From contig DAOUPZ010000013.1 of NCBI GenBank assembly GCA_030625885.1, forward strand, positions 1-64,000: DNA of 64,000 nt, in the 5' to 3' direction. A program made the translations under genes and the position numbers. Below, one piece after another: positions 33,924-49,576 of the stretch. Positions within the stretch are counted from its first letter, which is position 1. Each line of letters starts with the position of its first letter. Source of the stretch: Clostridia bacterium. Its GTDB lineage: Bacteria; Bacillota; DAOUPZ01. The notes beneath the pieces are model-generated. The model saw only the letters and a list, made by a program, of their open reading frames with translations, made no database searches and had not been told where the DNA came from.

Positions 33924-33978
33924 TTGCTTTTTGGGGGATAGAGCGCTATAATAGGCTTAGCTAAAAGATTGTCGACAA
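33924..33978 (+). promoter_or_regulatory. Promoter and GntR-type operator upstream of the EamA gene
   Basis: TTGCTT (33924-33929), 17-base spacer, TATAAT (33947-33952), then the perfect palindrome TTGTCGACAA at 33969-33978, ~17 bases past the -10. A repressor bound there would block elongation or clearance. The same promoter string (TTTTGCTTTTTG ... GGATAG ... TATAATAG) occurs at 35175 and, more diverged, at 36213. Confidence 0.75.
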
Positions 33979-34079
33979 TAGGTAGATGCCTATTTACTTT
34001 AGAGTGCTGATCAGGGGTGGTTAATTCATATAGCAGTGTAGGCGAAGTAAAAGTAAATTGAAATGGGGGAAGGGTACCA

Positions 34080-35027
34080 GTGAATCTTAACAAAATTACC
34101 AAGGGGTATCTAATGGTTATGGCAGCAAGTATTTGTTTTGGAACATCTTGTGTGCCAGGGAAAATATTGCTTGGCTATCAAATATCTCCGATGATTATTA
34201 CGTGGTGGCGGTTGTTTTTAGGTTTTACAGTATTGTTATTATATGTTTCTATTAAAGATCCCAAGCTGTTGAAAATAGATAAAAAAGGCATGATATATAC
34301 TGCTTTAATAGGGCTAATTTCTTATGCTCTATTAAATTTTTTGAATTTGAACGCACTTGAAAAAACATCTGTTGCGACACAAGTTGTTTTATTATATACG
34401 GCGCCTATATTTGTAATTATTATGGCTAGAATTTTTTTCAAGGAATTATTGACACCTTTCAAAATTGCTGCACTTGTTTTGTGCATTGGAGGATGCTTTT
34501 TGACTGTAACAGGAGGTTATGTAGCCGCGCTTAAATTTAATCTTTTAGGGGTTTTGATGGGGATCGGCGCTGGGTTGTGTTATGCTTTACTCACAATTAT
34601 GAGTAAAGCAATATTACACAAATACAACCAATGGACGATTGTTTTATATGCTATGGGATTTGGGTTTCTTTTTCTACTTCCGTTTTCAAATCCATTAGAA
34701 GTATTTCATTATGGGTTAAATCCGAAGATAGGGTTAAGCTTTTTTTGGCTTGGATCTTTCTCAACGGCATTAAGTTATGGGTTATATATTACGGGATTAT
34801 CATCTGGGATTGAATCATCCAAAGCCGGTATGATTAGCACACTTGAAGTGGTTGTGGCGGTTACCCTGTCCTATCTTTTCTTTAATGAGATGGTTTTAGG
34901 GTGGAAATTATTTGGTGTTTTAATGGTGATCGCTTCAGTGATTATCATTCAGGTGGATACGAGTAATCCGTCTGAGATAAAAAATAACGGATTAAATGAT
35001 GGACAATTAATTAAAGAGCTTAAGTAG
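34080..35027 (+). CDS. EamA/DMT-family transporter
   Basis: 315 residues from a GTG with GGGGGAAGGG upstream. Ten hydrophobic segments in two EamA halves (FGTSCVPGKILLGYQISPMIITWWR; second half from LLGVLMGIGAGLCYALLTIMSK; KAGMISTLEVVVAVTLSYLFFNE). Drug/metabolite transporters of this family usually export amino acids or metabolites; substrate unknown. It shares promoter and operator design with the two downstream gntR genes, so it probably belongs to the island's regulon as an exporter or relief valve. Confidence 0.87.
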   Translation: MNLNKITKGYLMVMAASICFGTSCVPGKILLGYQISPMIITWWRLFLGFTVLLLYVSIKDPKLLKIDKKGMIYTALIGLISYALLNFLNLNALEKTSVATQVVLLYTAPIFVIIMARIFFKELLTPFKIAALVLCIGGCFLTVTGGYVAALKFNLLGVLMGIGAGLCYALLTIMSKAILHKYNQWTIVLYAMGFGFLFLLPFSNPLEVFHYGLNPKIGLSFFWLGSFSTALSYGLYITGLSSGIESSKAGMISTLEVVVAVTLSYLFFNEMVLGWKLFGVLMVIASVIIIQVDTSNPSEIKNNGLNDGQLIKELK

Positions 35028-35032
35028 TCAGC

Positions 35033-35070
35033 AAATGACCTCTGTATTCAGCAGAGGTCATTTTGTTTTT
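35033..35070 (+). terminator. Intrinsic terminator after the EamA gene
   Basis: 12-bp stem AAATGACCTCTG / CAGAGGTCATTT, 7-base loop, then TTGT6. It begins 5 bases after the stop codon, so the EamA gene is a one-gene transcript. Confidence 0.9.
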
Positions 35071-35174
35071 TGGAGTGGAGGAAGGGGAATTAACTTTAAT
35101 AGTGAGAAATGAAATATAACTGTGTATGATAAAGAAAAATAGGTATTATTCTAGTTTAAGGTGGGAAAATAATT

Positions 35175-35307
35175 TTGCTTTTTGAGGGATAGAAAGTTAT
35201 AATAGCTTTAAACAAACAAATTGTCGACAAGAAGCCGACAATTTGTAAATACATATTTATTATGGGAAGTTTATATTTTTTTAAAGCATAGTGTCGACAA
35301 GGTCGAC
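35175..35307 (+). promoter_or_regulatory. Promoter and multiple GntR-type operators upstream of the first gntR gene
   Basis: TTGCTT (35175-35180), 17-base spacer, TATAAT (35198-35203). TTGTCGACAA at 35221-35230 is followed by the partial site GCCGACAA. A tandem pair TGTCGACAAGGTCGACA has GTCGAC cores at 35293-35298 and 35302-35307, nine bases apart centre to centre. The 351-base gap 35028-35378 otherwise holds the EamA terminator and AT-rich DNA without genes. Confidence 0.75.
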
Positions 35308-35378
35308 AATACGTAGTGGGTATTATTGCATACCGTTTAATATCTAAGGTATAGAAATGAGGTAAATGAGGTGAAAAT

Positions 35379-36053
35379 ATGCTTGGCAGGGGCTTAGAAA
35401 AACGGTTTATAGGGGAAAATATTTCTGCGATTGTTACAGATTATATCAAAGAAAGAATTATGACTGGTAAGTATGCTGAAGGAGACCATATTCCCCAAAC
35501 TGTAATTGCGAGAGAACTGGAAATAAGCAGAGGTCCTGTCAGGGAAGGGATCAAGGAACTTCAAAATCAAGGCGTCATTGATTTTGTCCCGAGAACAGGT
35601 AATTTTGTAGCTTGTTTTACAACTGAAGATAAAAAAGAGATTTTTGATATCAGGCTTATGATCGAGGGGGCAATGCTTGAGCAATTGATAAAAGAGAGTA
35701 AGCTTGGGGAAGAAGATTTTACTCACCTTACAAAAATTGTGGAAGAAATGGTGCAAATAAGCGAGTGTGAATGGGATATGGTGGAAAAGGCAGCCCAGAT
35801 GAGCAAGAAGGATATTGAATTCCATAGATATATTTGGAAAAAATCTGGTGGTAAAAGAAAGATAGAAATTTTAGAAAACCTTCATTTTCAGCTTCAAATG
35901 GCGATGATATACGACACAAAGTTTGGTGGAAATCTCCCAATAACGGCTAAAGAACACTATGATATCATACGCTGCTTAAAAACGGGAGATATTAAGAATT
36001 GTAAATCCGTATTAAAAGAACACATCACTTTATACAGAAAAGGTGTTTTTTAA
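35379..36053 (+). CDS. GntR-family transcriptional regulator, FCD type (copy 1)
   Basis: 224 residues, GAGGTG before the ATG. N-terminal winged helix-turn-helix (~15-80: IVTDYIKERIMTGKYAEGDHI, VIARELEISRGPVREGIKEL, GVIDFVPRTGNFV). The C-terminal FadR-type all-helical ligand domain (FCD, ~90-220) has IRLMIEGAMLEQLIKE and the histidines DIEFHRYIW and EHYDIIRCL, likely metal/ligand residues. FCD regulators typically sense small organic acids or amino acids and bind GTCGAC-like or TNGTNNNACNA palindromes. The palindromes upstream of this gene suggest autoregulation. Confidence 0.92.
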   Translation: MLGRGLEKRFIGENISAIVTDYIKERIMTGKYAEGDHIPQTVIARELEISRGPVREGIKELQNQGVIDFVPRTGNFVACFTTEDKKEIFDIRLMIEGAMLEQLIKESKLGEEDFTHLTKIVEEMVQISECEWDMVEKAAQMSKKDIEFHRYIWKKSGGKRKIEILENLHFQLQMAMIYDTKFGGNLPITAKEHYDIIRCLKTGDIKNCKSVLKEHITLYRKGVF

Positions 36054-36212
36054 CCATAAAAATACGACCGAAAACAAGATAGGATAACGGAAGCAGTAAG
36101 AAGAAGAGCCTATACGATAACGAAATATGCAATATAATGTCGAAACATGTAATATGATAACGAATAACAACAAGAAACAGGTATTATATGAGTTTAAAGG
36201 GGGCAAACGATT

Positions 36213-36309
36213 TTGCCCTTTGCGGAAATGGGTTGTATAATAATGATAAGAAAAACACGTTTATTTTATGAATTATTTTTTTTAACAATACATTGTCGAC
36301 AAGGTCGAC
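36213..36309 (+). promoter_or_regulatory. Promoter and tandem operators upstream of the second gntR gene
   Basis: TTGCCC (36213-36218), 17-base spacer, TATAAT (36236-36241). The operators TTGTCGACAA (36293-36302) and GTCGAC (36304-36309) keep the same arrangement as the tandem pair before copy 1. The string AGGTATAGAAATGAGGT before both start codons is also conserved, so the whole promoter-gene unit was duplicated. The 319-base gap 36054-36372 holds no gene. Confidence 0.75.
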
Positions 36310-36372
36310 GATTTAACAATAGAAATATGCTATTATAACTTAATATTCAAGGTATAGAAATGAGGTGAGTGT

Positions 36373-37047
36373 ATGGTAGATGGGATGATGAGAGACAAGT
36401 TAAATAAAGAAAACTATTCTGAGGTTGTTATTGCGTATGTCAAAGAAAAAATTATTACTGGCAAATATGCTGAAGGCGCTCATATTTTGGAAACCGAGCT
36501 TGCCAGGGAACTTGGGATAAGCAGGGCCCCTGTCAGGGAAGGAATCAGGGAATTACAGAATGAAGGGATCATTGAATTAATTCCAAGAAAAGGTAATTAC
36601 GTCGTAACATTTACAGCCAAAGAGAAAAAGGAAATTTTGGATGTCAGGTTAACACTGGAAGAAGAGATGCTTGCCATTTTGATAAGAGAGAATAAGCTTG
36701 CTGAATCTGATTATATGCGTCTGATGGAAATAATAGATGAGATGGTCAAAATGGTTCAAGATGAAAGTGATATGAAGCAAAAAGCCATCATCATGAGCAA
36801 GAAAGACATAGAATTTCATAAATATCTTTGGAAAAAATCTGAAAGTAATATCAGGAGTGGCATTCTAGAAAAACTTCATTTCCAGCTTCAGATGGCAATG
36901 ATATTTGATAATGAGATGAGTGCGGATTTGGAGATGTCGGCGAAAGAACACTATGATATTATTGAGTGCATGAAAAGGAGAGATTTAGAAGACTGTAAAA
37001 AAGCATTAAGAAAACATGTGATTTTATGTCGTCGTTCAAAGGCCTAA
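36373..37047 (+). CDS. GntR-family transcriptional regulator, FCD type (copy 2)
   Basis: 224 residues, same length as copy 1 and collinear with it without obvious gaps. Winged HTH (VIAYVKEKIITGKYAEGAHI, LARELGISRAPVREGIREL, GIIELIPRKGNYV); FCD domain with VRLTLEEEMLAILIRE, DIEFHKYLW and EHYDIIECM. It lies 32 bases upstream of the M20 amidohydrolase and probably shares its transcript. HTH recognition helices differ slightly between the copies (ISRGPVREGIKE versus ISRAPVREGIRE), so both may read the same operator while sensing different ligands. Confidence 0.92.
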   Translation: MVDGMMRDKLNKENYSEVVIAYVKEKIITGKYAEGAHILETELARELGISRAPVREGIRELQNEGIIELIPRKGNYVVTFTAKEKKEILDVRLTLEEEMLAILIRENKLAESDYMRLMEIIDEMVKMVQDESDMKQKAIIMSKKDIEFHKYLWKKSESNIRSGILEKLHFQLQMAMIFDNEMSADLEMSAKEHYDIIECMKRRDLEDCKKALRKHVILCRRSKA

Positions 37048-37079
37048 GGAAAACGCTCAATTAGGAAAGAGGTTTGATC

Positions 37080-38264
37080 ATGAAAACAATCATAGACATC
37101 AAAAAAGAAGTAATGGATTTAAATGAGGAATTGATTGATTTAAGAAGAGATTTTCATAGGCATCCAGAGCTTGGCTATCAAGAGTTCAGAACCTCCAAAA
37201 TTGTCAAAGAATATCTTGAAAACCTGGGGATAGAGACAAAAATCGTCACGGATACCGGTGTCGTAGGTCTTTTGCGAGGGGGCAAGGAAGGAAAAACCGT
37301 GCTATTAAGGGCTGATATGGATGCGCTTCCTCAGGAAGAAAAAACAGATGTGGATTACAAATCAGTTGAAGAAGGTAAAATGCATGCCTGCGGCCATGAC
37401 GGTCATACGGCTATGCTTCTGGCAGCAGCAAAAATACTGGCAAAACACCGCGATCAGCTATCAGGTAATGTCAAGTTTATCTTTCAGCCTAATGAAGAAG
37501 GGGCTGGGGCACTGAATATGATCAATGAGGGTGTTATGGAAGAACCGAAGGTTGATGCTGCCTTTGCCATCCATCTCTGGACACCCATTGAAAGCGGCAA
37601 AATTGGGATATGTGGTGGTCCGGTAATGGGAGCGTGTGAGGTTTTCGAGGTTACTGTGATGGGTAAGGGCGGACATACGTCTACCCCACATGTAGGGATA
37701 GACCCGATACTTATTGCCAGCAGCATTATTCAGGGGATCCAATCCCTGGAGACCAGAGAAACAAGTCCGCTTGCTCCCATAACCATTATGGTTGGCAGCA
37801 TCAAAGGTGGAACAGGCTGCAATATTATTGCAGATAAGGTTCAAATGGAAGGAACGATTCGGTTCCTGTTTGAAAATGAGGAAGAAGAAAAGAAAAAGCT
37901 TCTTGAAAAGTTTGAAAGAGTTGTAAAGGGAATCTGTGATGCGATGGGAACGACCTATCAACTGAAATTTATTCCAAGCAATCCGGCCGCGATTAACGAT
38001 GACAGGATGGCAGAGCTTGTAAAACAAGCGGCTAGAGAAACGCTTGAGGGAGAATGTAGTGTAACTTACAGGAATATGGCGGGAGAGGATTTTGCGGAGT
38101 TTACCCAAAGGGTTCCAGGTGTTCTTTACTTTGTGGGAACCGGAAATGAAGAAAAAGGAACGCACTATCCGCATCATCATCCCAAGTTCAATATTGATGA
38201 AGATACCTTAAAAACCGGTGTTGAAATGCATGTGCGAACCGTATTAAAGTATCTTGAAAGCTAG
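37080..38264 (+). CDS. M20-family amidohydrolase (N-acyl-amino-acid deacylase type)
   Basis: 394 residues; ATG 37080 has AGGAAAGAGG 7-8 bases upstream. Peptidase M20D/HipO-like: RRDFHRHPELGYQEFRTSKIV, LLRADMDALPQEEKTDVDY, HACGHDGHTAMLLAAAKIL (metal ligands), FIFQPNEEGAGAL (general-base Glu), a dimerisation domain (VTVMGKGGHTSTPHVGIDPI), and YRNMAGEDFAEFTQRVPG with the late metal His region HYPHHHPKF. Family members remove acyl groups from N-acyl amino acids such as hippurate, N-acetyl-cysteine or N-acetyl-diaminopimelate. In this island a deacetylase acting after the DoeA-like hydrolase is an attractive inference. Confidence 0.93.
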   Translation: MKTIIDIKKEVMDLNEELIDLRRDFHRHPELGYQEFRTSKIVKEYLENLGIETKIVTDTGVVGLLRGGKEGKTVLLRADMDALPQEEKTDVDYKSVEEGKMHACGHDGHTAMLLAAAKILAKHRDQLSGNVKFIFQPNEEGAGALNMINEGVMEEPKVDAAFAIHLWTPIESGKIGICGGPVMGACEVFEVTVMGKGGHTSTPHVGIDPILIASSIIQGIQSLETRETSPLAPITIMVGSIKGGTGCNIIADKVQMEGTIRFLFENEEEEKKKLLEKFERVVKGICDAMGTTYQLKFIPSNPAAINDDRMAELVKQAARETLEGECSVTYRNMAGEDFAEFTQRVPGVLYFVGTGNEEKGTHYPHHHPKFNIDEDTLKTGVEMHVRTVLKYLES

Positions 38265-38284
38265 TAGATTTATACATTTTTAAA

Positions 38285-38337
38285 GTCGACTGTGTCGGCA
38301 GTAGACAGAGAGTCGACAGTATGTGAGGCGTTATAAT
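38285..38337 (+). promoter_or_regulatory. GntR-type operators and -10 box before the aldehyde oxidoreductase gene
   Basis: GTCGAC cores at 38285-38290 and 38312-38317 with an imperfect TGTCGGCA between. TATAAT at 38332-38337 has no good -35 at normal spacing; the second GTCGAC lies where a -35 would be. Transcription from here would give a leader of only ~15 bases before the ATG at 38359. Confidence 0.6.
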
Positions 38338-38358
38338 CTAATATTAGGGGGGGGAGTC

Positions 38359-40287
38359 ATGCAGTTATTTCCAGATGCGACAATACTAGATGTAGACTTA
38401 AGTAGTGGTCATATTACCAAAAGAACATTACCGGGGTCAACCTATCGTTTGTATCCAGGCGGTTCAGCCCTGGGGCTGTACCTTTTAATGCAGGAGATGG
38501 ATCCAAAAGTTGATCCGCTGTCTCCGGACAATATGTTGATATTTTCCGTTTCAGCACTGACCGGTTTACCAATGGCGGGTCTGAGTCGGGTGGTGGTCAC
38601 CACCAAAAGCCCGCTCACTGGAACCATTGGTGACAGCCAGGCGGGAGGATTCTTTCCAGTACATATGAAAGGGAACGGCTATGATTCGATTATGATCAGG
38701 GGTAAAGCCGAAAAGCCAGTGTATTTATACATCAATGGTGATAATGTTCAAATTAAAGATGCATCTAACGTTTGGGGTAAGGTAACCGGTGATGCGGAAA
38801 AGGTCATCCGGGAAGAGATTAATAATGAAAAAGTAGAAATCGCCCAAATCGGACCAGGTGGCGAAAACATGGTAAGGTATGCTGCCATTATCAACATGTG
38901 CAACCGGGCCAATGGGAGAAATGGTACGGGAGCCGTTATGGGTTCTAAAAACTTGAAAGCAGTGGTTGTTAATAAAACCAAAGCGCAACAGCCCGATGAT
39001 AAAGAAGGCTTTAAAAAGCTTGCCGGTTCTGTAAAGAAACAACTGGAAAACAATCCTGGCGTTGCCGGGCTTGGCAAGTATGGAACAGCCGGTGATGTTG
39101 TTGGCTTTAATGACGAAGGATTTTTAGCAACCGAAAACTGGACACGCAGTTATTTTCCGGAAGGCGCTCAAGACATTGATGGGGCAACCCTATATGACAC
39201 GATCTTAAAAGAACGGGATACGTGTTATGCCTGTCCGGTAAAGTGTAAACGGGTAGTCGAAATTCCTGGTGTCGTCGATCCACTGTATGGCGGTCCGGAA
39301 TATGAAACACTTTGTATGTTGGGATCTTATTGTGGGATAAAAGATATGCAGGCCGTTGTTGTCGGAAACCAGCTTTGCAACATGTACGGGCTGGATACGA
39401 TGTCCTGCGGTGCCACCATTGCGTTTGCCATGGAATGTTATGAAAAAGGGCTCATTACAGATCAAGATACCGATGGCCTGAAACTGAATTTTGGCAATAG
39501 CGAAGTACTCGCACCGCTGATTGAAAAGATTGCTAAACGGGATGGCTTTGGTCATCTATTAGCCGAAGGCAGCAAGCGTGTCGCTGATAAAATCGGCAAT
39601 GGCGCCGATGCATTCTTCATGGGCGTCAAAGGTCAGGAACTTCCAGCACATATGCCGCAGTACAAACCGGCGCTAGGTATGGTTTATGCTGCTAATCCGT
39701 TTGGCGCGGATCATCAATCCAGCGAACATGATCCTTTCCTGGTGATGCCGCCGGACAGTCAGGAACGGGTAAATATTGCCAAGATTGGTACACATGCGGA
39801 TTATGATAATCCATTTGTGATTGATGAGGACAAGGTTAGATTTGCATTTGACAGTCAATGCTTCTTTTCCATAACGGACACACTGTGTTTGTGCCAATTT
39901 GTGTGGGGACCCTGTTGGAGCTTGTACGGTCCTTCGGAACTTGTTGAATTGTGTAAGACTGGTCTAGGTTGGGATACCTCCATCTTTGAATTGATGCGAG
40001 TGGGGGAACGAAGAATTAACATGATGCGTTTCTTTAACGCCCAAGTTGGATTTAGCAAAAAAGATGACAAGCTGCCGAAGCGAATCTTTGAGCCGATTCC
40101 TACCGGTCCTGCTAAGGGGACTCAGTTGGATGAGAAGAAATTCTACGAAGCAATGGATCTATACTATGCCTTTGCCGGCTGGGATGTAGAAACCGGTAAC
40201 CCAACGGATATTAACATGCGAAAATTATCGCTGGGTTGGCTGGTAGAAAAGTATAAAAAAACGGCAACAAGAGAAAAAGAGATATAG
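38359..40287 (+). CDS. Tungsten-type aldehyde:ferredoxin oxidoreductase family enzyme
   Basis: 642 residues; ATG 38359 directly follows AGGGGGGGGAG. An upstream in-frame start at 38323 is rejected because it overlaps the -10 box. AOR family: YPGGSALGLYLLMQEM, LTGLPMAGLSRVVVTTKSPLTG (pterin-binding N-domain), NGRNGTGAVMGSKNLKAVVV. The 4Fe-4S cysteines are CYACPVKCKR plus a distal Cys in DTLCLCQF. Such enzymes oxidise aldehydes to acids, reducing ferredoxin, with a bis-pyranopterin tungsten or molybdenum centre. The related gene immediately downstream is 11 bases away. In the island it could oxidise an aldehyde made during side-chain breakdown; substrate unknown. Confidence 0.92.
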   Translation: MQLFPDATILDVDLSSGHITKRTLPGSTYRLYPGGSALGLYLLMQEMDPKVDPLSPDNMLIFSVSALTGLPMAGLSRVVVTTKSPLTGTIGDSQAGGFFPVHMKGNGYDSIMIRGKAEKPVYLYINGDNVQIKDASNVWGKVTGDAEKVIREEINNEKVEIAQIGPGGENMVRYAAIINMCNRANGRNGTGAVMGSKNLKAVVVNKTKAQQPDDKEGFKKLAGSVKKQLENNPGVAGLGKYGTAGDVVGFNDEGFLATENWTRSYFPEGAQDIDGATLYDTILKERDTCYACPVKCKRVVEIPGVVDPLYGGPEYETLCMLGSYCGIKDMQAVVVGNQLCNMYGLDTMSCGATIAFAMECYEKGLITDQDTDGLKLNFGNSEVLAPLIEKIAKRDGFGHLLAEGSKRVADKIGNGADAFFMGVKGQELPAHMPQYKPALGMVYAANPFGADHQSSEHDPFLVMPPDSQERVNIAKIGTHADYDNPFVIDEDKVRFAFDSQCFFSITDTLCLCQFVWGPCWSLYGPSELVELCKTGLGWDTSIFELMRVGERRINMMRFFNAQVGFSKKDDKLPKRIFEPIPTGPAKGTQLDEKKFYEAMDLYYAFAGWDVETGNPTDINMRKLSLGWLVEKYKKTATREKEI

Positions 40288-40298
40288 GAGGGAATACA

Positions 40299-41528
40299 AT
40301 GAAAATTGAAAAACTAACTGATATTGATGGATTATTGCGAAAACACGAGGATTATCGTTCAAGATGTCTTAACCTGATTGCTTCGGAAAACTATGCGAGT
40401 GATAAGGTCAGAAGCTATCTTAGCGGTGACTTTAGCAACCGGTATGGTTGTTATGTTGGAATGGACCTGGATGATAGAGAATATACGGGTAATAAATATA
40501 TCAATGAATTTGAAAAAGCAACGCAGGAACTTGTCAAAGAGGTATTTGGCGGCAAGTATGCCGATCTTAGACCCATCGGCGGTCATATGGCAGGGATGTC
40601 AGTTGTATTGGCACTGCTAGAACCGGGTGACTTGGTGATTGAAGTGCATCTTAAAGATTGGGGTCATGGCCTGGTCGGTCCCATGTGTGAACTGAGACAA
40701 TTTGATGAAACCATCAATGTAGAATACATGAAGTTTGATGAAAACGGGGCTGTTGATACGAAAGCACTGCAAAAAATGGCGGCTGAATTAAAGCCCAAAT
40801 TAATTGTCTTCGGTGGTTCCGGAACACTTTTCCCTGAACCTATTAAAGAACTGAAGGAAATTGCGGACCGGGAAAATATTTTATTGGCGTATGATGCATC
40901 CCATGTAACCGGGTTGATTGCATCCGGTGTATTCCCCAATCCCCTCGAAGAAGGGGTAGATGTGATGTTTGGCAGTACCCATAAATCATTCCCCGGTCCA
41001 CAAGGCGGATTTGTGGTATCCGACAACAAGGAATTGATGGAAAAGATCGGGAATGCGCTTTCTCCATCATTGGTTACCAGCCATCATTTGAACCGCCTGC
41101 CAGCATTTGCTGCATCCCTTTTGGAGATTAAATCGTTTGGTAAAGCATATGGTGAGCAGGTTGTCAGAAACTCAATGGCGCTTGCAAAAGCTATGGCTAA
41201 GGAAGGATTTAAGGTCAAAGGCGCCGCAAGAGGTTATACTGAATCACACTTGATTTTGGTTAATGTCGGCGGGTTTGTTGATGAAGCGCCGGGAAAATTA
41301 TTGGAAAAAGCCGGCATTTTATGCTCGGATGATTTCTCCGGTAGTGCACCCGAAGTTAGAATCGGCACGCCTGAATCAACCCGCAGAGGCATGAAGGAAG
41401 AAGATATGCAGGCAATCGCTCAATTCTTCAAGCGCGTTCTGATTGATAAGGAAGATCCGGAATCCGTATTAAAAGATGTCGAAACATTTGCTTTAAAATT
41501 CCCCGATTATGAATACGCATTTAAGTAA
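40299..41528 (+). CDS. Serine hydroxymethyltransferase-like PLP enzyme (paralogue)
   Basis: 409 residues, AGGAGGG before the ATG, 11 bases after the AOR gene. Fold type I PLP enzyme of the SHMT group: LNLIASENYASDKVRSYLSG, ADLRPIGGHMAGM, YDASHVTGLIASGVFPNPL, and the lysine for PLP at Lys229 in GSTHKSFPGPQGG. It is diverged from housekeeping GlyA: there is no normal YAEGYPGKRYY segment (here FSNRYGCYVGMDLDDREYTG), and it sits in a catabolic island. SHMT-like paralogues act on glycine, alpha-methylserine or beta-hydroxy amino acids, with or without folate. A glycine- or serine-yielding step would feed the Grd-type reductase, but this is inference. Confidence 0.88.
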   Translation: MKIEKLTDIDGLLRKHEDYRSRCLNLIASENYASDKVRSYLSGDFSNRYGCYVGMDLDDREYTGNKYINEFEKATQELVKEVFGGKYADLRPIGGHMAGMSVVLALLEPGDLVIEVHLKDWGHGLVGPMCELRQFDETINVEYMKFDENGAVDTKALQKMAAELKPKLIVFGGSGTLFPEPIKELKEIADRENILLAYDASHVTGLIASGVFPNPLEEGVDVMFGSTHKSFPGPQGGFVVSDNKELMEKIGNALSPSLVTSHHLNRLPAFAASLLEIKSFGKAYGEQVVRNSMALAKAMAKEGFKVKGAARGYTESHLILVNVGGFVDEAPGKLLEKAGILCSDDFSGSAPEVRIGTPESTRRGMKEEDMQAIAQFFKRVLIDKEDPESVLKDVETFALKFPDYEYAFK

Positions 41529-41734: not shown

Positions 41735-42904
41735 ATGTTAGCATTTGAAAAATCCGAGTATCTGGAAAGAGTTAAAAAAGTGAAGGAAAGAATGGTAGAA
41801 CAAGGGATAGATGTTATATTGGCTTCTGATCCCGCGAATATTTGTTATTTAACTGGGTTTGAGGGATGGTCATTTTATGTTCATCAGACAGTAATCGTCG
41901 CATTAGATGAAGAACAGCCGACGATTATCATTAGAGGACAAGATTCTTTTGGCGCTGAACTCACAACCTGGTTAGATAAAGAAAATATCATTCCTTATCC
42001 TGACTTCTATGTAAATAATTCAGTTCAACATACCATGGATTTTGTGTCTGATATTTTAATCAAGAAAGGCCTTGGCAACAAGACAATCGGTGTAGAAAAG
42101 GAAGGGTTCTATTTCTCAATGCTTTGCGGTGAAAGAATAGAAAAAGGACTTCCCGATGCTAAGATTGTCGACTCAGATTATCTTGTGAACTGGGTTAAAT
42201 TGATAAAATCTGATAACGAGATAGCATGTATCAGAAAAGCAGCAACAATATCTGAAAAAGTTATGCGAACGGTTATTGATAAAATCGCAGTAGGGGTAAG
42301 ACAGTGTGATGTTGCAGCGGCTGCTTATCAAGCTCAGGTCAGTGGTACAGACGAGTATGGCGGAGAATTTTCTGCAATGTTCCCATTTATGTCTGCTGGG
42401 CAGCGGTCAAGTGCCTGCCACCTTCCCTGGACGGATCAACCGTATAAAAAAGGAGAATCACTCATATTTGAATTCTCCGGTGTGCATAAGCGATACCACT
42501 CTCCTTTAGCGAGAACCATTTCCCTTGGCGAACCTTCTCAAAAGCTTAATGACTCTGCAAATGTCGTTATCGAAGGCTTGGAAGCCGCTCTAGCTGCTGT
42601 AAAACCGGGTGCAGCTTGTGAGGATGTAGAAAAAGCATGGAATCAAGTCATTACCAAATATGGTATTATCAAAGATTCGCGAATTGGTTATTCCATTGGT
42701 TTGAATTTCCCACCAAACTGGGGTGAAAATTCCTGTAATCTTAGACCTGGGGACAAGACAGTTCTTCAGCCTAATATGACATTTCATATGATACCGGGTG
42801 TCTGGATGGACGACTTTGGCATTCACTTTAGTGAAACTTTCAGAGTCACTGAAAATGGCTGTGAAACAATGGCTAATTTCCCACGTGAGTTGTTTATCAA
42901 ATAA
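41735..42904 (+). CDS. M24-fold hydrolase of the ectoine hydrolase (DoeA)/creatinase type
   Basis: 389 residues, AGTGAGGAG before the ATG. Two-domain pita-bread enzyme: N-domain (YLERVKKVKERMVEQGIDVI, CYLTGFEGWSFYVHQTVIV), catalytic domain (EYGGEFSAMFPFMSAG, CHLPWTDQPY, KRYHSPLARTISLG, GYSIGLNFPPNWGE, LRPGDKTVLQPNMTFHMIPG, HFSETFRVTENG). Those strings follow DoeA, which opens the ectoine ring to N-acetyl-diaminobutyrate, more closely than creatinase or prolidase. The prolidase metal site is broken: the first Asp is replaced in LIFEFSG and the second by Pro in YHSPLART. His229 occupies the place of creatinase's catalytic His. So a metal-independent C-N hydrolase is expected. Substrate inferred, not proven: ectoine, creatine or a related cyclic/amidino compound. 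Confidence 0.85.
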   Translation: MLAFEKSEYLERVKKVKERMVEQGIDVILASDPANICYLTGFEGWSFYVHQTVIVALDEEQPTIIIRGQDSFGAELTTWLDKENIIPYPDFYVNNSVQHTMDFVSDILIKKGLGNKTIGVEKEGFYFSMLCGERIEKGLPDAKIVDSDYLVNWVKLIKSDNEIACIRKAATISEKVMRTVIDKIAVGVRQCDVAAAAYQAQVSGTDEYGGEFSAMFPFMSAGQRSSACHLPWTDQPYKKGESLIFEFSGVHKRYHSPLARTISLGEPSQKLNDSANVVIEGLEAALAAVKPGAACEDVEKAWNQVITKYGIIKDSRIGYSIGLNFPPNWGENSCNLRPGDKTVLQPNMTFHMIPGVWMDDFGIHFSETFRVTENGCETMANFPRELFIK

Positions 42905-43003: not shown

Positions 43004-44467
43004 ATGAATACAACTATTTTAGCAATTTTAATTGTTTATTGTGTTGGAATGATGGCGGTTGGTATATATTTTAGTAAAAAAGATTTAGAACAATCTGATT
43101 TCCTGCTTGGTGGGAAAAAGATTCCAGGATGGGCTTTAGCGTTTTCTGAAAGATCGACCTGTGAGTCTGTATGGCTTTTGATGGGCGCTACCGGCTTTGT
43201 ATATTCAACAGGTCTTTCTAGTATTTGGATATTTGTTGGTTCTTTCTTAGGGGTTGGCGGTGCATGGGTGTTCTTCTCCAAGCGGTTTATGCAGGAAACA
43301 AATAAATATAACGTTTTGACCCTTTCTGACTATCTTGCTGTAAGGTTTGGGGATAATGGTAAGGCGATAAGATGGCTTGCCAGTATTACAATCGTATGTT
43401 TCTTTATGTTCTATCTAGCCGCTCAATTTGCTGGCGCGGGCAAAACATTATTAACAACATTTGGGTTGAACCAATATACGGGTATGGTTTTGTCTGCAGT
43501 AATTGTTATTATATATGCTACTATGGGTGGATTCTTATCTGTTGTGTGGACGGATGTTATTCAAAGTTTGTTAATGGTTTTAACATTGATAGGACTACCA
43601 ATCGTTGCATTTTTCAAAATTAATGCGCAAGGTTTATCGGTAACTCATGCGCTTGCTACTGCCGGTGCAGGTATGAATTCTTGGACAGGCGGGTTATCTG
43701 GTTTTGCCGTGGTTACCTTGCTGGTGGCGAACTTCTCCTGGTTCTTTAGCTTTTTAGGCGGCCAGCCTCAATTAAGTGCTCGGTTTATGGCAATGAAGGA
43801 TGAAAAAGAAGTAACGCAAGGAAGAAATATTGGGTTAATATGGACAGTATTTGCTTATTCAGGTGTATTCCTAATTGGTCTTACGGCGATTGCATTATAC
43901 GGCCCGAATGCTTTTGCAGATGCGGAAACACTGTTACCATTTATGATCCAGGATTTATTACCACCATGGCTTGCGGGACTTTTGCTTTCCGGTATTTTGG
44001 CAGCAATGATGTCAACTTCCGATTCAGTATTGCTAGTTATTACAGGTTCTATTAGTGAAGATATTATTAATAAAGCGATGGGAGTTAAATTAAATGCAAA
44101 ACAGCTGATGAAGGTATCTCGATTAACAGTAGTAGGGGCAGGTCTATTGGGGTTAATTATTGGTATGACATCAAAATCACTGATTTATTATGTTATTAAC
44201 TGGTTTTCAGCTGGAATTGGCTGTACATTCTCGGTTGCTGTTTGTCTCGCATTCTTCTGGAAGAAAACTTCTGGGAAAGGGATCGTGGCCACTTTAGCTT
44301 CAGGATTTATCATTACTGTTATTTGGATGAGTTCACCATTGGAGGCTGTATTAACTTCCCGTGTTGTTACGTTCTTCCTGGCTGGAATCATTGGAATGGT
44401 CGTTAGTGTGTTATTCCCCGATAAAGAACAAGAATTAAGTGTTAAAGAAACAGAGCCTGCTATTTAA
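43004..44467 (+). CDS. Sodium:solute symporter (SSS family)
   Basis: 487 residues, AGGAGGCGT before the ATG. About 13 membrane segments with SSS features: YFSKKDLEQSDFLLGGKKIPGWA near the N-terminus, ATMGGFLSVVWTDVIQS (the conserved GGxxxVxxTDxxQ region), and LLSGILAAMMSTSDSVLL, holding the Na+-site serines/threonine. Family substrates include proline, pantothenate, sialic acid, choline-like osmolytes and sugars. Its place between the DoeA-like hydrolase and the GrdE/B pair makes it the probable importer of the island's substrate, driven by a Na+ gradient. Confidence 0.92.
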   Translation: MNTTILAILIVYCVGMMAVGIYFSKKDLEQSDFLLGGKKIPGWALAFSERSTCESVWLLMGATGFVYSTGLSSIWIFVGSFLGVGGAWVFFSKRFMQETNKYNVLTLSDYLAVRFGDNGKAIRWLASITIVCFFMFYLAAQFAGAGKTLLTTFGLNQYTGMVLSAVIVIIYATMGGFLSVVWTDVIQSLLMVLTLIGLPIVAFFKINAQGLSVTHALATAGAGMNSWTGGLSGFAVVTLLVANFSWFFSFLGGQPQLSARFMAMKDEKEVTQGRNIGLIWTVFAYSGVFLIGLTAIALYGPNAFADAETLLPFMIQDLLPPWLAGLLLSGILAAMMSTSDSVLLVITGSISEDIINKAMGVKLNAKQLMKVSRLTVVGAGLLGLIIGMTSKSLIYYVINWFSAGIGCTFSVAVCLAFFWKKTSGKGIVATLASGFIITVIWMSSPLEAVLTSRVVTFFLAGIIGMVVSVLFPDKEQELSVKETEPAI

Positions 44468-44508
44468 TTGATGATGTTCTATTAAATTTAAAATTAATGG
44501 TTGGTCAA

Positions 44509-44555
44509 TGATACATGGGGACATTCCTGGGAATGAGGAATGTCCCCATGTATCA
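44509..44555. repeat. Perfect 20-bp hairpin (REP-like) between symporter and grdE
   Basis: TGATACATGGGGACATTCCT, 7-base loop, exact complement. It contains the GGGGACATTCC core of the REP-A family but has its own flanks. No T tract, so a role in mRNA stability or as a REP target is more likely than termination. 44556-44693 is AT-rich leader DNA before grdE. Confidence 0.7.
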
Positions 44556-44693
44556 AACCTAAACAATTGTTAGTTAATATTTTGAAGAGCAAAAATTAAC
44601 AGGTTGTTAATTATCAATAATAGAAAATGCCATTAAAAGTATTAATAGTTAATAACAGCATTCAAGCTGTTTAAATATAAGGAGGTGGAGCTT

Positions 44694-45983
44694 GTGCGTT
44701 TAGAACTTGGAAAAATTAAAATTACCGATGTTCAATTTGGTGAATCAACCAAGGTAGAAAACGGCACTCTGTTTGTTAACAAACAAGAATTAATTGACAT
44801 GGCTCTGCAAGACGAACGCCTGAAAAGTGTGGCTATCGAACTTGCACGGCCTGGGGAATCCATTAGAATTACCCCTGTTAAGGATGTGATTGAACCTCGA
44901 GTTAAAGTAGAAGGCTCTGGTGTGATGTTCCCCGGTATGATTGGGAATAAGGTTAAAACAGTGGGTTCAGGGCGTACGCATGCATTGGTTGGGGCTACAG
45001 TAATTACCTGTGGTAAAATCGTCGGTTTCCAGGAAGGTGTTATTGACATGTCTGGTCCGATAGCCAAGTATTGTCCGTTCTCTGAAACCTATAACGTTTG
45101 TGTGGTCGTTACCCCTCAAGAAGGTCTGGGAACACATGCTTATGAAGCAGCTGCGAGAGAAGCAGGTTTAAAAATTGCGACAGCTGTTGGGGAAGCAGGG
45201 AGAAATGTTGAGCCTGATGAAGTGGTTGTTTATGATACCAAACCGCTTTTAGAACAGGTTAACGAATATCCCGGTTTACCGAAGATTGGCTACATTCATA
45301 TGCTTCAATCCCAAGGTTTACTTCATGACACGTATTACTATGGTGTAGATGCCAAGCAAATTGTACCAACTTTCATGTATCCAACCGAGATTATGGATGG
45401 CGCGATTACAAGTGGTAACTGTGTGGCACCTTGTGATAAAGTAACCACATTCCATCATTTAAACAATCCGGTTATTGAAGACCTTTATAAGAGACATGGT
45501 AAGGATCTTAACTTTATTGGTGTTATTCTAACCAACGAAAATGTATTCCTGGCAGACAAAGAAAGATCTTCCGATATGGTCGGAAAATTTGTGGAATACC
45601 TCGGTTTAGATGGTGTCCTTATCACGGAAGAGGGATATGGTAATCCGGATACCGATTTAATGATGAACTGTAAAAAAGCGACGGATGCAGGGGCTAACGT
45701 TGTCCTGATTACGGACGAGTTTCCGGGCAGAGATGGCAAATCCCAATCCTTAGCTGATGCTAAAACAGAAGCAGATGCACTTGTATCATGTGGAAATGGT
45801 AATATCATTCTGAATTTCCCACCCATGGATAAAGTAATCGGGATGCTTGACTATATTGAAAGCCAAATTGGCGGATACGAAGGCAGTTTAAAACCGGATG
45901 GCAGCATCGAAGGGGAACTTCAACTTGTTATCGCAAGTACGATCGCCAACGGTTATAACAAGCTAACTGCCAGAACTTACTAG
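44694..45983 (+). CDS. Glycine/sarcosine/betaine reductase component B, proprotein subunit (GrdE type)
   Basis: 429 residues from GTG 44694, 8 bases after GGAGG; an in-frame GTG at 44685 lies in the ribosome-binding site. GrdE/GrdG/GrdI family: MRLELGKIKITDVQFG, RTHALVGATVITCGKIVGFQEG, EGLGTHAYEAAAREAGLKIAT. The processing site is visible as Asn242-Cys243 in ITSGNCVAPCDKV; family knowledge is that cleavage before this Cys gives alpha and beta chains and a pyruvoyl/carbonyl group that forms a Schiff base with the substrate amine. It lies 16 bases upstream of the selenoprotein gene. Which amine is reduced cannot be told, so no symbol is assigned. GrdA, GrdC and GrdD are not in the window. Confidence 0.92.
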   Translation: MRLELGKIKITDVQFGESTKVENGTLFVNKQELIDMALQDERLKSVAIELARPGESIRITPVKDVIEPRVKVEGSGVMFPGMIGNKVKTVGSGRTHALVGATVITCGKIVGFQEGVIDMSGPIAKYCPFSETYNVCVVVTPQEGLGTHAYEAAAREAGLKIATAVGEAGRNVEPDEVVVYDTKPLLEQVNEYPGLPKIGYIHMLQSQGLLHDTYYYGVDAKQIVPTFMYPTEIMDGAITSGNCVAPCDKVTTFHHLNNPVIEDLYKRHGKDLNFIGVILTNENVFLADKERSSDMVGKFVEYLGLDGVLITEEGYGNPDTDLMMNCKKATDAGANVVLITDEFPGRDGKSQSLADAKTEADALVSCGNGNIILNFPPMDKVIGMLDYIESQIGGYEGSLKPDGSIEGELQLVIASTIANGYNKLTARTY

Positions 45984-45999
45984 GAAAGGGGGAGAGAAG

Positions 46000-47310
46000 A
46001 TGAGTAAATTAAAAGTTGTCCATTATATCAATAACTTTTTCGCCGGAATCGGTGGAGAAGAAAAAGCAGATATTGTTCCAGAAATCAGAGAAGGTGTTGT
46101 GGGTCCCGGTATGGCCTTAAATAAGGCTTTGGGAGATGAAGCCGAAGTGGTAGCGACTGCCATTTGTGGTGATTCCTATTTTGGGGAAAACCTGGAAGAA
46201 GCGCAAGCAACCCTTATTGAAATGATCAAACAATATGAACCGGATTTATTTGTAGCAGGACCTGCATTTAATGCCGGAAGATACGGTGTGGCTTGTGGAA
46301 TCATAGCTAAAGCGGTAGAGGCTGAATTAAACATCCCTGTTATTACAGGCATGTATATTGAAAATCCAGGGGCAGACATGTTTAAAAAAGACCTACATAT
46401 TATTGCAACAAATAACTCTGCTGCAGATATGAGAAATGCAATACCAAAGGTGGCAAAACTGGGTTTGAAATTAGCTAAAGGTGAAGAAGTAGGGCCGCCG
46501 GAAGAAGAAGGCTATCACGTCAGAGGCATCAGAGTCAATTACTTTCATGAACGAAGAGGGACAGAACGGGCGATTGATATGCTGCTGAAAAAGATCAATG
46601 GCGAAGAATTTGTGACTGAATATCCTATGCCTGTTTTTGATCGGGTAGAACCACAACCGGCAATTAAAGATATGTCCAAGGTGAAAGTTGCCATTGTGAC
46701 ATCAGGTGGGATTGTACCGCAAGGTAACCCGGATCGCATCGAGTCATCCAGTGCCACAAAATATGGGATCTATGATATTAGCGGAATGGATTCCTTAACG
46801 TCTGATAAGTTTATGACCATTCATGGTGGTTATGACCGTGCATTTGTTACGGAAAACCCTAACCTCGTCGTACCTTTAGATGTCATGCGTGAAATGGAAA
46901 AAGAAGGCGTTATCGGTGAATTATGTAACTACTTTGTGACAACCACAGGGACGGGTACGGCAGTAGGTAACGCTAAAGCATTTGGGGAAGCATTTTCGAA
47001 AAAATTAGTAGCTGACGGCGTAGAGGCTGTTATTTTAACATCTACCTGAGGTACCTGTACACGTTGCGGTGCAACGATGGTCAAAGAAGTTGAAAGAGCG
47101 GGTATTCCAGTTGTTCACGTATGTACAGTTACTCCCATTTCCCTGACGGTAGGTGCAAACCGAATCGTACCGGCAGTTGGTATTCCCTATCCATTAGGTG
47201 ATCCTAATTTAGACGTAGAAGGCGACAAGAAATTAAGAAGACAGTTAGTTGAAAAAGCGCTGAAAGCTTTGCAAACAGAAGTTGAAGAGCAGACGGTATT
47301 TGAAGATTAG
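46000..47310 (+). CDS. Glycine/sarcosine/betaine reductase component B, selenoprotein subunit (GrdB type, Sec350)
   Basis: 436 residues reading the in-frame TGA at 47047-47049 as selenocysteine 350 (ILTST-U-GTCTRCGATM). Without recoding the frame would stop at 349 residues, and the continuation GIPVVHVCTVTPISLTVGANRIVPAVGIPYPLG is plainly the conserved GrdB C-terminus. N-terminus VVHYINNFFAGIGGEEKAD and AGPAFNAGRYGVACG, TGMYIENPGADMF are standard. The region before Sec is unusual: NPNLVVPLDVMREMEKEG and NYFVTTTGTGTAVG where classical GrdB/F/H have a DRVLPVDVLR...YTTxGNGT-like string, so this may be a distinct reductase subtype. The Sec attacks the substrate-bound carbon and passes it on to GrdA. 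ATG with GGGGGAGAG upstream. Confidence 0.95.
47062..47076 (+). promoter_or_regulatory. SECIS-like hairpin downstream of the Sec codon
   Basis: Perfect 6-bp stem CGTTGC-GGT-GCAACG, 12 bases after the UGA (47047-47049). Position and the GG-starting apical loop suit a bacterial SECIS read by SelB. It overlaps the codons for the conserved TRCGAT segment. Confidence 0.7.
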
Positions 47311-47331
47311 AGATTATTTTAAAGTGGGAAA

Positions 47332-47365
47332 GTAAGGAAAGGTAATATGTATTACTTTTCCTTAC
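47332..47365 (+). terminator. Hairpin after the GrdB-type gene
   Basis: Stem GTAAGGAAAGGTAAT / ATTACTTTTCCTTAC (15 bp, one G-U), loop ATGT, 21 bases past the stop codon. No T tract follows, so it may be a stability hairpin rather than a terminator. Confidence 0.6.
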
Positions 47366-47430
47366 GCAGATATAACAGGAATTGGACAATACATTAGTAT
47401 TTATTAATGAGCTAGAAAGCACAAATTTTA

Positions 47431-47604
47431 GCAAGAAATAAAAGTAAAAAAGCGAACATTCAAAGTTTTTTGTATGTGGTTCTCAGTGAAGGCAGAAAAA
47501 AACCGTTAAAAATTTTGAGTCAAAATTTAGGTTTTTTTTCTGACAAGCTGTTAGAACCACTCAAAAAACTTTGTCAGAGAGCGTTTTATTTTTATTTCTT
47601 TAGC
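47431..47604. repeat. 174-bp imperfect palindrome (MITE-like)
   Basis: Nearly continuous inverted repeat. Outer AAGAAATAAAAGTAAAAAAGCG pairs with the 47581-47604 segment, CAAAGTTTTTTG (47461-47472) with CAAAAAACTTTG (47562-47573), GTGGTTCT with AGAACCAC, AGAAAAAAACC with GGTTTTTTTTCT, and AATTTTGA with TCAAAATT at the centre. No coding potential. It differs in sequence from the GCAGGTAG family elsewhere in the window. Confidence 0.75.
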
Positions 47605-47654
47605 ATTTAGCCGTTAGGCGTTTTTCTCAGTATAGCTTGAGATTTAAAATGGAA

Positions 47655-47850
47655 TGGTGCTTGGTACCATAGGTGGAGGTTAAAATAACCGTATCAATAG
47701 CGTAGGTAAATAATTCTTTCGTTTACTAACAGTGGTATAGAAATGATCATGAAGCTCGCCAATGCTTCCTTCTTTTTCTACATCTCTTAATACATCTACT
47801 GGTAATATACGATGAGAACCTTCATTATAATACACCAGGTCATAAGCACC
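47655..47850 (-). pseudogene. Relic of a canonical GrdB-type gene, Sec codon changed to TAT
   Basis: Read on the minus strand from 47850, one frame gives GAYDLVYYNEGSHRILPVD then VLRDVEKEGSIGELHDHFYTT, the classical GrdB/F/H region before the selenocysteine. After a frameshift with a deletion, a second frame gives YAIDTVILTSTYGTKHHS, which aligns with VEAVILTST-U-GTCTRC of the intact gene. The Sec position is TAT at 47671-47669. Homology ends a few codons later, and at the 5' side near 47850 (a TAA is in frame just before). No start, no C-terminus. It is closer to canonical GrdB than the intact neighbour is, so it is not a simple copy of it. Confidence 0.82.
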
Positions 47851-47881
47851 CTTTTATCCAATAGAGTTTATCCCGAACTAC

Positions 47882-48029
47882 CGTTTCTAAGACTCCCTCT
47901 TCTGCAAGAGGGAGCCTAAGAAACGCTACGTTCCCGATTCGGTTTTCTAAACGCTTACGTGGGAGAGAAAGAAACTCCCACGTAAGCGTTAGAAAACTAT
48001 TTATGGGATGGTATATACCATCCCATAAA
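47882..48029. repeat. Three consecutive long hairpins
   Basis: Hairpin 1, 47882-47925: CGTTTCT ... AGAAACG enclosing CTCCCTCTT-CTGC-AAGAGGGAG. Hairpin 2, 47942-47997: left arm GTTTTCTAAACGCTTACGTG plus GGAG, 9-base loop, right arm complementary with one bulged A. Hairpin 3, 48000-48029: perfect 30-base palindrome around GGTATATACC. They fill the space between the two grdB relics. None has a terminator T tract; hairpin 2 might be an element end. Confidence 0.75.
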
Positions 48030-48065
48030 AATAATTTCGTTCCTCTTTCTCATGGGTGAGGAAGC

Positions 48066-48149
48066 AAGAAATTAAGAAGACAATTGGTTGAAAAAGCGCT
48101 GAAAGCTTTGCAAACCGAAGTTGATGAACAAACGGTATTTGAAGACTAG
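48066..48149 (+). pseudogene. 3' tail of a second GrdB-type gene
   Basis: 84 bases encoding KKLRRQLVEKALKALQTEVDEQTVFED-stop, in two readable halves of one frame. It aligns with the last 84 bases of the intact gene (from 47227) with about seven substitutions, several of them synonymous. Everything upstream is missing. This shows that a second plus-strand copy existed, or that the 3' end was duplicated when the intervening DNA was inserted. The 907-base stretch between the intact gene and the NSS gene thus has relics and palindromes but no intact gene. Confidence 0.85.
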
Positions 48150-48217
48150 ATGAAAATTATAAAAAGTCGAAATTATTATATTATATTATAAAAATATAAA
48201 GAAAGAGGTGTCTCTTG

Positions 48218-49576
48218 ATGGAAAAAGAAAGAGCGAACTGGGGCAGTCGAATAGGGTTTATTTTAGCAGCAGCAGGGTTTTCCGTTGGTTTAGGTAACAT
48301 CTGGAGATTCCCATATATGACTGGTATGAATGGTGGGGGCGCATTCCTTATAGTTTATTTGGCAATCTCTTTAATCATCGGTGTCCCACTATTTCTTTCA
48401 GAAGTTGGCTTAGGGCGTAAAACGCAACTTAATCCCATTGCAGGGATGCGGAAACTGACGAAAAAAGGCAGTCCATGGGTGGCGGCTGGTTGGTTAGGTA
48501 CCCTTGCTTCGGTATTTGTTATGTCCTATTATTTGCAGGTGATTGGCTGGATGGTTGCCTACTTTTTTAAGGTAATATCCGGTACATTTAAAGGGATGGA
48601 GGCAGAACAGCTTGATGCTGCGTATGCTTCATTTACTGCAAATACACCTGTGGTCATGGCGTTTACACTTATTGTTGCTATTATTTTGGGTGTGATCGTA
48701 ACCAGAGGACTAAAAGAAGGTGTTGAAAAAGCTTGTAAGATCATGATGCCAACTCTATTTATTTTCTTGCTCCTCTTAGGTATTAGATCTTTGACGTTGC
48801 CAAATGCCATTGAAGGAGTTAAATGGTATCTAACACCTGATTTTTCTAAAATAAATGCTGGGGTTCTTGTTGCATCACTGGGTCAGGTATTCTTCTCAAT
48901 TGGAATTGGGGCCGCATGTGCCTTCACTTATGGGAGTTATTTGCATCCCACACAATCGGATCTTCCGAAAGATTTAGCAATTGTTATTTTCTTAGACATG
49001 TTGGTTGCCGTTATTGCAGGCTTTGTTATCTTTCCCGCTTTGTTTTCATTTGGAATGGAACCTGATGCGGGTGCAGGATTGCTATTTGTTACGATGACCA
49101 GAATGTTTGGGGAGCTCCCCGTGGGAAATTTACTAGGCGGAATGTTCTTCTTCTTGATTGTAATGGCAGGTTTAACATCTGGTATGGGATATTTAGAAAC
49201 CGTATCTAATACCATGTCAGAATTATATAACATTGACCGCAAAAAATCTGTTTGGGGTACGCTGGCAGTGATGTTCTTATTAGGTATTCCTGCTATTCTT
49301 TCTCAGGGTTCATGGTCTCATGTTTTAATTCTTGGTATGAATTTCTTTGATTTTTACGATTATCTATCTGGCAATGTTTTGATGACAGCTTCCGGTTTGA
49401 TGATAATTTTGTACACCGCTTTTGTGTGGAAGTTTGAGAACTACAAGGAACAAAATAATATCGGAGCTACCACTATAAAAATTGGTAACTGGCAGAAGAT
49501 TTTAGTGACAATTATTGGTCCTATCGCTGTAGCCTACATTACGATATCGGCGATCATTAAACCATTTTTACATTAG
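48218..49576 (+). CDS. Neurotransmitter:sodium symporter family (NSS) transporter
   Basis: 452 residues; ATG 48218 follows AAAGAGGTG (a TTG three bases before is less well placed). LeuT-like: WGSRIGFILAAAGFSVGLGNIWRFPY is the hallmark TM1 with its unwound Na+/substrate site, then NGGGAFLIVYL, about eleven or twelve membrane segments, and SLGQVFFSIGIGAACAFTYGSY (TM6 region). Prokaryotic NSS members carry amino acids (glycine, alanine, leucine, tryptophan, methionine). Position after the grd genes suggests import of glycine or a small amino acid for the reductase, by Na+ symport. Sixty-eight bases from the grdB relic. Confidence 0.93.
   Translation: MEKERANWGSRIGFILAAAGFSVGLGNIWRFPYMTGMNGGGAFLIVYLAISLIIGVPLFLSEVGLGRKTQLNPIAGMRKLTKKGSPWVAAGWLGTLASVFVMSYYLQVIGWMVAYFFKVISGTFKGMEAEQLDAAYASFTANTPVVMAFTLIVAIILGVIVTRGLKEGVEKACKIMMPTLFIFLLLLGIRSLTLPNAIEGVKWYLTPDFSKINAGVLVASLGQVFFSIGIGAACAFTYGSYLHPTQSDLPKDLAIVIFLDMLVAVIAGFVIFPALFSFGMEPDAGAGLLFVTMTRMFGELPVGNLLGGMFFFLIVMAGLTSGMGYLETVSNTMSELYNIDRKKSVWGTLAVMFLLGIPAILSQGSWSHVLILGMNFFDFYDYLSGNVLMTASGLMIILYTAFVWKFENYKEQNNIGATTIKIGNWQKILVTIIGPIAVAYITISAIIKPFLH

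Follow-up and report, generated by a model that had tools for sequence, protein, structure and literature searches.

The gene island at 34.08–49.58 kb of the 64,000-nucleotide window analysed here (positions 1 to 64,000 of contig DAOUPZ010000013.1, Clostridia bacterium assembly GCA_030625885.1) is one of three copies of a module in the host genome, and we give about an even chance to the reading that this module is of a Clostridia type and serves the breakdown of 5-hydroxyectoine or of a closely similar cyclic amidine. The source assembly comprises 3.1 Mb in 39 contigs and is 98% complete, the window being contig 9. The island carries, all on the plus strand, an EamA transporter, two GntR/FCD regulators, an M20 amidohydrolase, a presumed tungsten aldehyde:ferredoxin oxidoreductase (AOR), a protein similar to serine hydroxymethyltransferase (SHMT-like), an M24 hydrolase, an SSF and an SNF transporter and component B of a Grd reductase. 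Genes and positions given in an earlier note, made from the sequence of the window, were confirmed, and Pfam and NCBIfam assignments agree with the two Na+ symporters (SSF and SNF) named there. From the observed gene content, conservation, operators, residue changes and co-occurrence we infer every reaction, the substrate and the link between regulators and operators.

In the proposed route hydroxyectoine would be taken up via the tripartite ATP-independent periplasmic (TRAP) transporter or SSF, and M24 would open its ring to give N-alpha-acetyl-3-hydroxy-diaminobutyrate, which M20 would deacetylate to acetate and 3-hydroxy-diaminobutyrate (3-hydroxy-DABA). Retro-aldol cleavage of the latter by a folate-free SHMT-like enzyme, dependent on pyridoxal phosphate (PLP), would produce glycine and aminoacetaldehyde; the tungsten AOR, a natural candidate for this aldehyde, would oxidise it to a second glycine with reduction of ferredoxin, and glycine would feed the selenium-dependent glycine reductase encoded elsewhere in the genome (Stickland reduction). 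The first two steps have a known counterpart: EutD opens hydroxyectoine to hydroxy-alpha-acetyl-DABA, from which a deacetylase is thought to yield hydroxy-DABA (PMC8739950). That the route ends in two glycines and acetate, with a compatible solute serving as both Stickland acceptor and donor and with a new activity of the SHMT-like enzyme, is a tentative proposal whose chances we put just short of even. An anaerobic way from hydroxyectoine to glycine is the most economical reading, held with a confidence of about one half because its reactions are deduced from sequence and the local M24 is atypical. The ectoine breakdown of the earlier note thus kept its type of substrate. The genes present, however, favour 5-hydroxyectoine and a retro-aldol step on the SHMT-like enzyme, which that model had left unexplained; as a whole the interpretation of the note is partly supported.

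The two other copies of the module contain M24 paralogues on contigs 22 and 23, each in a unit with TRAP genes, M20, AOR and an SHMT-like gene. M20 of the window is 79–83% and AOR 89–90% identical to its counterparts there (79–90% for M20, AOR and SHMT-like together), and FCD1 shares 65% identity with the FCD regulator adjoining the M24 paralogue in locus L024. Where the M24-TRAP pair usually stands, the window has a divergent M24, SSF and the Grd pair (GrdG/GrdF, see below), so that the substrate of the local operon may be a related compound or an N-methylated one. Both contigs break off inside SHMT-like copies that are 98.6% identical (L023 12773–13210; L024 18216–18650), so that the module is probably repeated further in the genome and the assembly collapsed there.

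With an M24 alignment as query over 85,000 species genomes 78 named loci were obtained. The gene order FCD-M24-DctQ-DctM-M20-DctP-AOR-SHMT-like was registered, with small variations, in Peptoclostridium litorale DSM 5388, Sedimentibacter hydroxybenzoicus DSM 7310 and metagenome-assembled genomes of Tissierellia and Syntrophomonadaceae. Parts of it were found in Gudongella (no M20 seen) and Ruminococcaceae (the contig ends before AOR), and one more genome (G112) has the module with no regulator within the stretch read. Among relatives drawn from the phylum, where the host's class is represented by the host genome alone, the SHMT-like protein was present in 2 of 399 genomes, both of which carry M24 modules. 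Comparison of neighbourhoods in related genomes, suggested in the earlier note as a check, revealed homologous clusters, spread over several fermenting bacteria that are only distantly related, which hold the set together and have an operator in common. In P. litorale (L048) a EutA-like gene (Asp/Glu racemase family, 55%) lies 3' of the SHMT-like gene, the sole EutA homologue seen in clusters with SHMT-like and AOR genes. In genome G046 (L028 6004–10436) M24 adjoins an L-threonine aldolase, a different AOR (35%) and a MoaD-like gene, possibly an independent parallel assembly of aldolase-plus-AOR chemistry. A second type of anaerobe cluster (L065, L094, L117, L126, L127, L132) combines M24, often in two copies, with TRAP and EutB, and usually adds M20, GDH, a PanB-like protein, RidA and a protein of 310–340 amino acids.

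The best PDB matches of the window M24 were DoeA structures (6twk/6twj, 349 bits), compared with 78 bits for creatinase. Its score with TIGR02993, the DoeA model, is 455.9 bits, under the cut-off of 613, and for this reason it is filed as DoeA-like only. M24 proteins of the module retain DoeA-family residues, and H229, E246, H255, E331 and H351, kept by all nine aligned M24 members, are intact in the window protein. M20 scored 301 bits with the DoeB2 model (cut-off 550). TeaA and UehA are crystallised ectoine receptors. They were matched by the contig 23 module's TRAP receptor with 227 and 208 bits, exceeded only by the unassigned 4pfi (238); the next match had 146 bits. This receptor is 62% identical to that of a EutB-type cluster in Ammoniphilus. 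In Priestia an M24 (55% identical) lies among genes for eutB, cyclodeaminase, M20, homoserine dehydrogenase and ALDH, and it was proposed in 2026 that Bacillota use ectoine by means of such clusters (PMC13188858). The EctI transporters, which are of the SSF type, are good importers of hydroxyectoine and weak importers of ectoine (PMC13342039), and by analogy the window SSF would fit an ectoine-type substrate. AOR has both AFOR_N and AFOR_C domains and the cluster-binding cysteines (CxxCxxxC at residue 301), its conserved start being probably the ATG of MQLFPD at about 38359. Family assignments and conserved clusters support the earlier idea of a catabolic island that combines M24 of the ectoine hydrolase type with an M20 deacylase and an AOR for the putative aldehyde, in a genome with Grd reductases.

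The SHMT-like protein of the window scored 295 with the NCBIfam model of SHMT, under its cut-off of 335, and a true GlyA is encoded separately on contig 28. Residues were numbered by the E. coli GlyA sequence, with the genome's own GlyA as a second reference. All SHMT-like proteins of the module keep the PLP lysine K229, Y55, Y65 and the arginine R363 for the substrate carboxylate, and all of them lack E57, Y64, R235, K346 and N347 as well as a seven-residue part of the folate loop. E57 is replaced by G, T or S, Y64 by E and N347 by D, leaving acidic residues at 64, 346 and 347. Since residues for PLP and substrate are kept and those for folate are lost, the proteins fit a folate-free aldolase. 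Hydroxy-DABA belongs to the beta-hydroxy-alpha-amino acids, on which SHMT and threonine aldolases act, and by our own stereochemical reasoning (4S,5S)-hydroxyectoine would yield its (2S,3S), that is L-allo, form. L-allo-threonine is a far better substrate of E. coli SHMT than L-threonine (PMC3697235), and the glutamate that corresponds to E57 has its role in the reaction with folate, being dispensable for folate-free cleavage of L-allo-threonine (PMC5958214).

The two downstream branches exclude each other in their distribution. Among 97 M24 loci 10 have SHMT-like/AOR genes without EutB/EutC, 43 have EutB/EutC without SHMT-like/AOR, and 44 have neither (Fisher p = 0.002). None of the eight genomes carrying the SHMT-like/AOR module exceeds the cut-off of TIGR02991 (EutB): two reach 271 and 264 bits and the other six stay below 80, compared with 348–378 in EutB-type genomes. 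A EutB-like gene on contig 30 was rejected as EutB; it stands alone, its neighbours being unrelated to it, and resembles a normal threonine dehydratase. In the M24 tree EutB+RidA loci of the Lachnospiraceae type nest inside the SHMT-like/AOR group, beside the Ruminococcaceae locus, which looks like an exchange of downstream branches with M24 left in place. GrdA was found in all eight SHMT-like/AOR carriers and in 7 of 23 EutB carriers (p = 0.0008), and is absent from the five Lachnospiraceae-type genomes nested in the SHMT-like/AOR group.

The motif GTCGAC occurs ten times in the window versus 4.6 ± 2.3 in shuffles, and eight of these sites fall in 33.97–38.32 kb, 5' of EamA, FCD1, FCD2 and AOR. 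None lies 5' of M24, SSF, grdG/grdF or SNF in the window (the M24 gene itself contains the site at 42167), and an operator matrix trained on other genomes found nothing in front of these genes either. The GTCGAC operators that the earlier note took to be shared by the whole island are thus present in its EamA-FCD1-FCD2-AOR half but missing in the M24-SSF-grdGF-SNF half, for which a single common operator is ruled out. Over all M24 loci the association is pronounced: GTCGAC stands no more than 300 bp 5' of M24 or FCD at 10 of 11 module loci, including Clostridium sp. Cult1 that carries only FCD-M24-TRAP-M20, versus 8 of 86 other M24 loci. We propose that the FCD regulators act at GTCGAC operators and control the module.

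The Grd pair of the window had been labelled GrdE/GrdB, which is ruled out by NCBIfam scores: both proteins exceed the cut-offs of the sarcosine "exception" models (GrdG 832.8 bits with a cut-off of 780; GrdF 849.9 with 800) and are of the sarcosine type. Its earlier description as a selenoenzyme holds, selenocysteine (Sec) in grdF being well supported by the in-frame TGA, through which the reading frame continues, and by SECIS_4 directly 3' of it, far above the Rfam gathering score of 38. The pair on contig 12 is of the glycine type (668.5/745.6 bits with the sarcosine models, under cut-off; 755.6 with glycine GrdB), which is consistent with the frame 3' of it, presumably a Na+/alanine-glycine symporter-like protein. 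A betaine-type pair on contig 20 (GrdH 849.3 bits, cut-off 775) adjoins a BCCT transporter and GrdA (265 bits, internal TGA). Contigs 15 and 16 break off inside additional sarcosine-type grdF copies, whose 3' halves were not found in the contig ends read. Altogether the host (contigs 9, 12, 15, 16, 20; L010, L012, L013, L009, L011) encodes three sarcosine-, one glycine- and one betaine-type component B and a D-proline reductase cluster, an unusually rich set of Stickland acceptors, with glycine and betaine pairs adjoining matching transporters. Broken grdF pieces 3' of the intact window gene, one old, inverted and 47–50% identical (47663–47853, minus strand), the other recent, 93% identical and just 5' of SNF (48060–48146, plus strand), suggest a lost or rearranged extra copy. 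As to grdA, grdC and grdD, expected by the earlier note elsewhere in the genome, GrdA is the one on contig 20, but GrdD was not detected, and GrdC was not searched for. Neither GrdC nor GrdD stands beside the grd genes of P. litorale.

Several points weigh against the hydroxyectoine reading. The hypothesis was formed after the clusters had been seen, and on the tree the co-occurrence with GrdA reduces to just 3–4 independent contrasts, none of them opposing, which are too few for significance. GrdD gave no hit in the host assembly with NF040747 or PF02504, the sole matches being PlsX beside FabH, an absence that is not established because the assembly fails at grdF repeats (two 3' halves are missing). 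Since the module showed no DABA aminotransferase, ectoine without the hydroxyl would lack an evident exit. The receptor differs from its relatives at two conserved positions (F of GFTGSLIP is N, W of PWGEVYGG is Y) and may bind another ligand. Finally, the window M24 deviates at 13 positions that 90% or more of its relatives conserve, compared with 0–4 in six others, and also lacks an operator, so that it may not act on hydroxyectoine.

The latter point feeds the alternative that survives best, which we nevertheless consider less likely: two neighbouring units, one for hydroxyectoine (M20-AOR-SHMT-like) and one for sarcosine or N-methyl-amines (M24-SSF-grdG-grdF-SNF), where the divergent M24 would free sarcosine or another N-methylglycine from a different precursor. 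Besides the 13 replaced residues, the window M24 has an end branch of 0.79 in the M24 tree (median 0.15) and 55% identity to its in-genome paralogues versus the 79–90% of M20, AOR and SHMT-like; the absence of operators in this half and the sarcosine type of GrdG/GrdF point the same way. On the other hand, M24 is the sole usual partner that is changed, its five family residues from H229 to H351 are intact, and the M24-SSF-grdGF adjacency was seen in no genome besides the host among those examined.

It is improbable that the substrate of the module as such is another amino acid derivative, N-acylated or cyclic and bearing a beta-hydroxyl, which would be imported via TRAP and degraded by the same aldolase/AOR logic. 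The altered ligand-pocket residues of the receptor would permit this, and since M24/M20/TRAP sets in several anaerobes also stand beside GDH, PanB-like and other genes, the M24 family may cover more than ectoines; retention of DoeA-family residues in the module M24 proteins, the homologous M24 in EutB/EutC clusters of Bacilli and the closely similar receptor of Ammoniphilus speak for ectoines instead. A very improbable alternative is the earlier model in which M24 as a creatinase makes sarcosine and urea from creatine and GrdGF reduces the sarcosine: the fold is common to both families ("pita-bread", with the weak match of 78 bits) and sarcosine-type Grd genes do adjoin M24, but the creatine-binding R64, E262, R335 and E358 of creatinase are replaced by V, A, G and I, respectively, in the window M24 and are absent from DoeA as well, DoeA scores 349 bits, and creatine needs neither M20 nor aldolase nor AOR, so that the creatinase part is rejected on substrate residues while sarcosine reduction is retained through the GrdG/GrdF assignment.

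Table 1. Genes, operators and RNA element of the island, in window coordinates
Feature	Position	Strand	Basis
GTCGAC-type operator, 5' of EamA	33967..33988	+	other-genome matrix 17.8 bits, top in window; GTCGAC at 33971
EamA/DMT transporter	34080..35027	+	Pfam PF00892 5e-41
Three GTCGAC operators (35223, 35293, 35302), 5' of FCD1	35223..35307	+	
GntR/FCD regulator 1 (FCD1)	35379..36053	+	Pfam GntR + FCD
Two GTCGAC operators, 5' of FCD2	36295..36309	+	
GntR/FCD regulator 2 (FCD2)	36373..37047	+	Pfam
M20 amidohydrolase, proposed hydroxy-acetyl-DABA (hydroxy-ADABA) deacetylase	37074..38264	+	TIGR01891 371 bits, above cut-off
Two GTCGAC sites, 5' of AOR	38285..38317	+	
AOR, presumed tungsten enzyme	38323..40287	+	Pfam AFOR_N/AFOR_C
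SHMT-like enzyme, proposed folate-independent 3-hydroxy-DABA aldolase	40299..41528	+	Pfam SHMT
M24 ectoine-hydrolase-type enzyme, divergent paralogue	41735..42904	+	TIGR02993, PDB matches to DoeA
SSF sodium:solute symporter, PutP-like	43004..44467	+	Pfam SSF; TIGR02121 307 bits, under cut-off
grdG, sarcosine reductase component B proprotein	44685..45983	+	NF040793
grdF, sarcosine reductase selenoprotein B	46000..47310	+	NF040794; Sec TGA 47047-47049
SECIS_4 selenocysteine insertion element	47050..47087	+	Rfam RF01990 64.1 bits
SNF (SLC6-type) sodium-dependent transporter	48215..49576	+	NF037979 133 bits, cut-off 50

With the Proteobacterial systems (uehABC-eutABCDE-ssd-atf, doeABCD) the module shares the M24 ring hydrolase, the deacetylase and a TRAP importer of the TeaA/UehA group. 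It differs in that EutB/EutC, EutE and Ssd/Atf were not seen (the EutA-like gene of P. litorale stands alone), SHMT-like and tungsten AOR genes are present, FCD takes the place of EnuR, and the proposed product is glycine, whereas theirs is aspartate. The putative ectoine clusters of Bacillota (eutB/eutC, abgB, thrA, adh), with which Gram-positive ectoine use was proposed only in 2026 (PMC13188858), have an M24 about 55% identical, M20 and sometimes the TRAP receptor. They carry, however, ALDH, EutB/EutC and a homoserine-dehydrogenase-like gene, and SHMT, AOR or glycine reductase are not mentioned in the main text of that work. SHMT and L-threonine aldolase have the same fold, PLP lysine and carboxylate arginine, and SHMT cleaves L-allo-threonine without folate, while folate-binding residues and loop are lost in all module members. 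Stickland sarcosine, glycine and betaine reductases are matched by GrdG/GrdF with Sec and SECIS_4 and by GrdA in the genome; what differs is their place in one island with an ectoine-type module, and GrdD, not found in the assembly. No anaerobic route from hydroxyectoine to glycine was found in the literature searched. For aerobes, too, it is not settled how hydroxyectoine sheds its hydroxyl, nor what EutABC exactly do (PMC8739950).

If the proposed route is true, it would make a complete anaerobic pathway for hydroxyectoine, with a new folate-free aldolase derived from SHMT and a role for tungsten AOR in the breakdown of compatible solutes. It would also tie osmolytes to the selenium-dependent reduction of glycine in guts and in anoxic, saline sediments. 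The prediction is testable in the culturable P. litorale DSM 5388 and S. hydroxybenzoicus DSM 7310.

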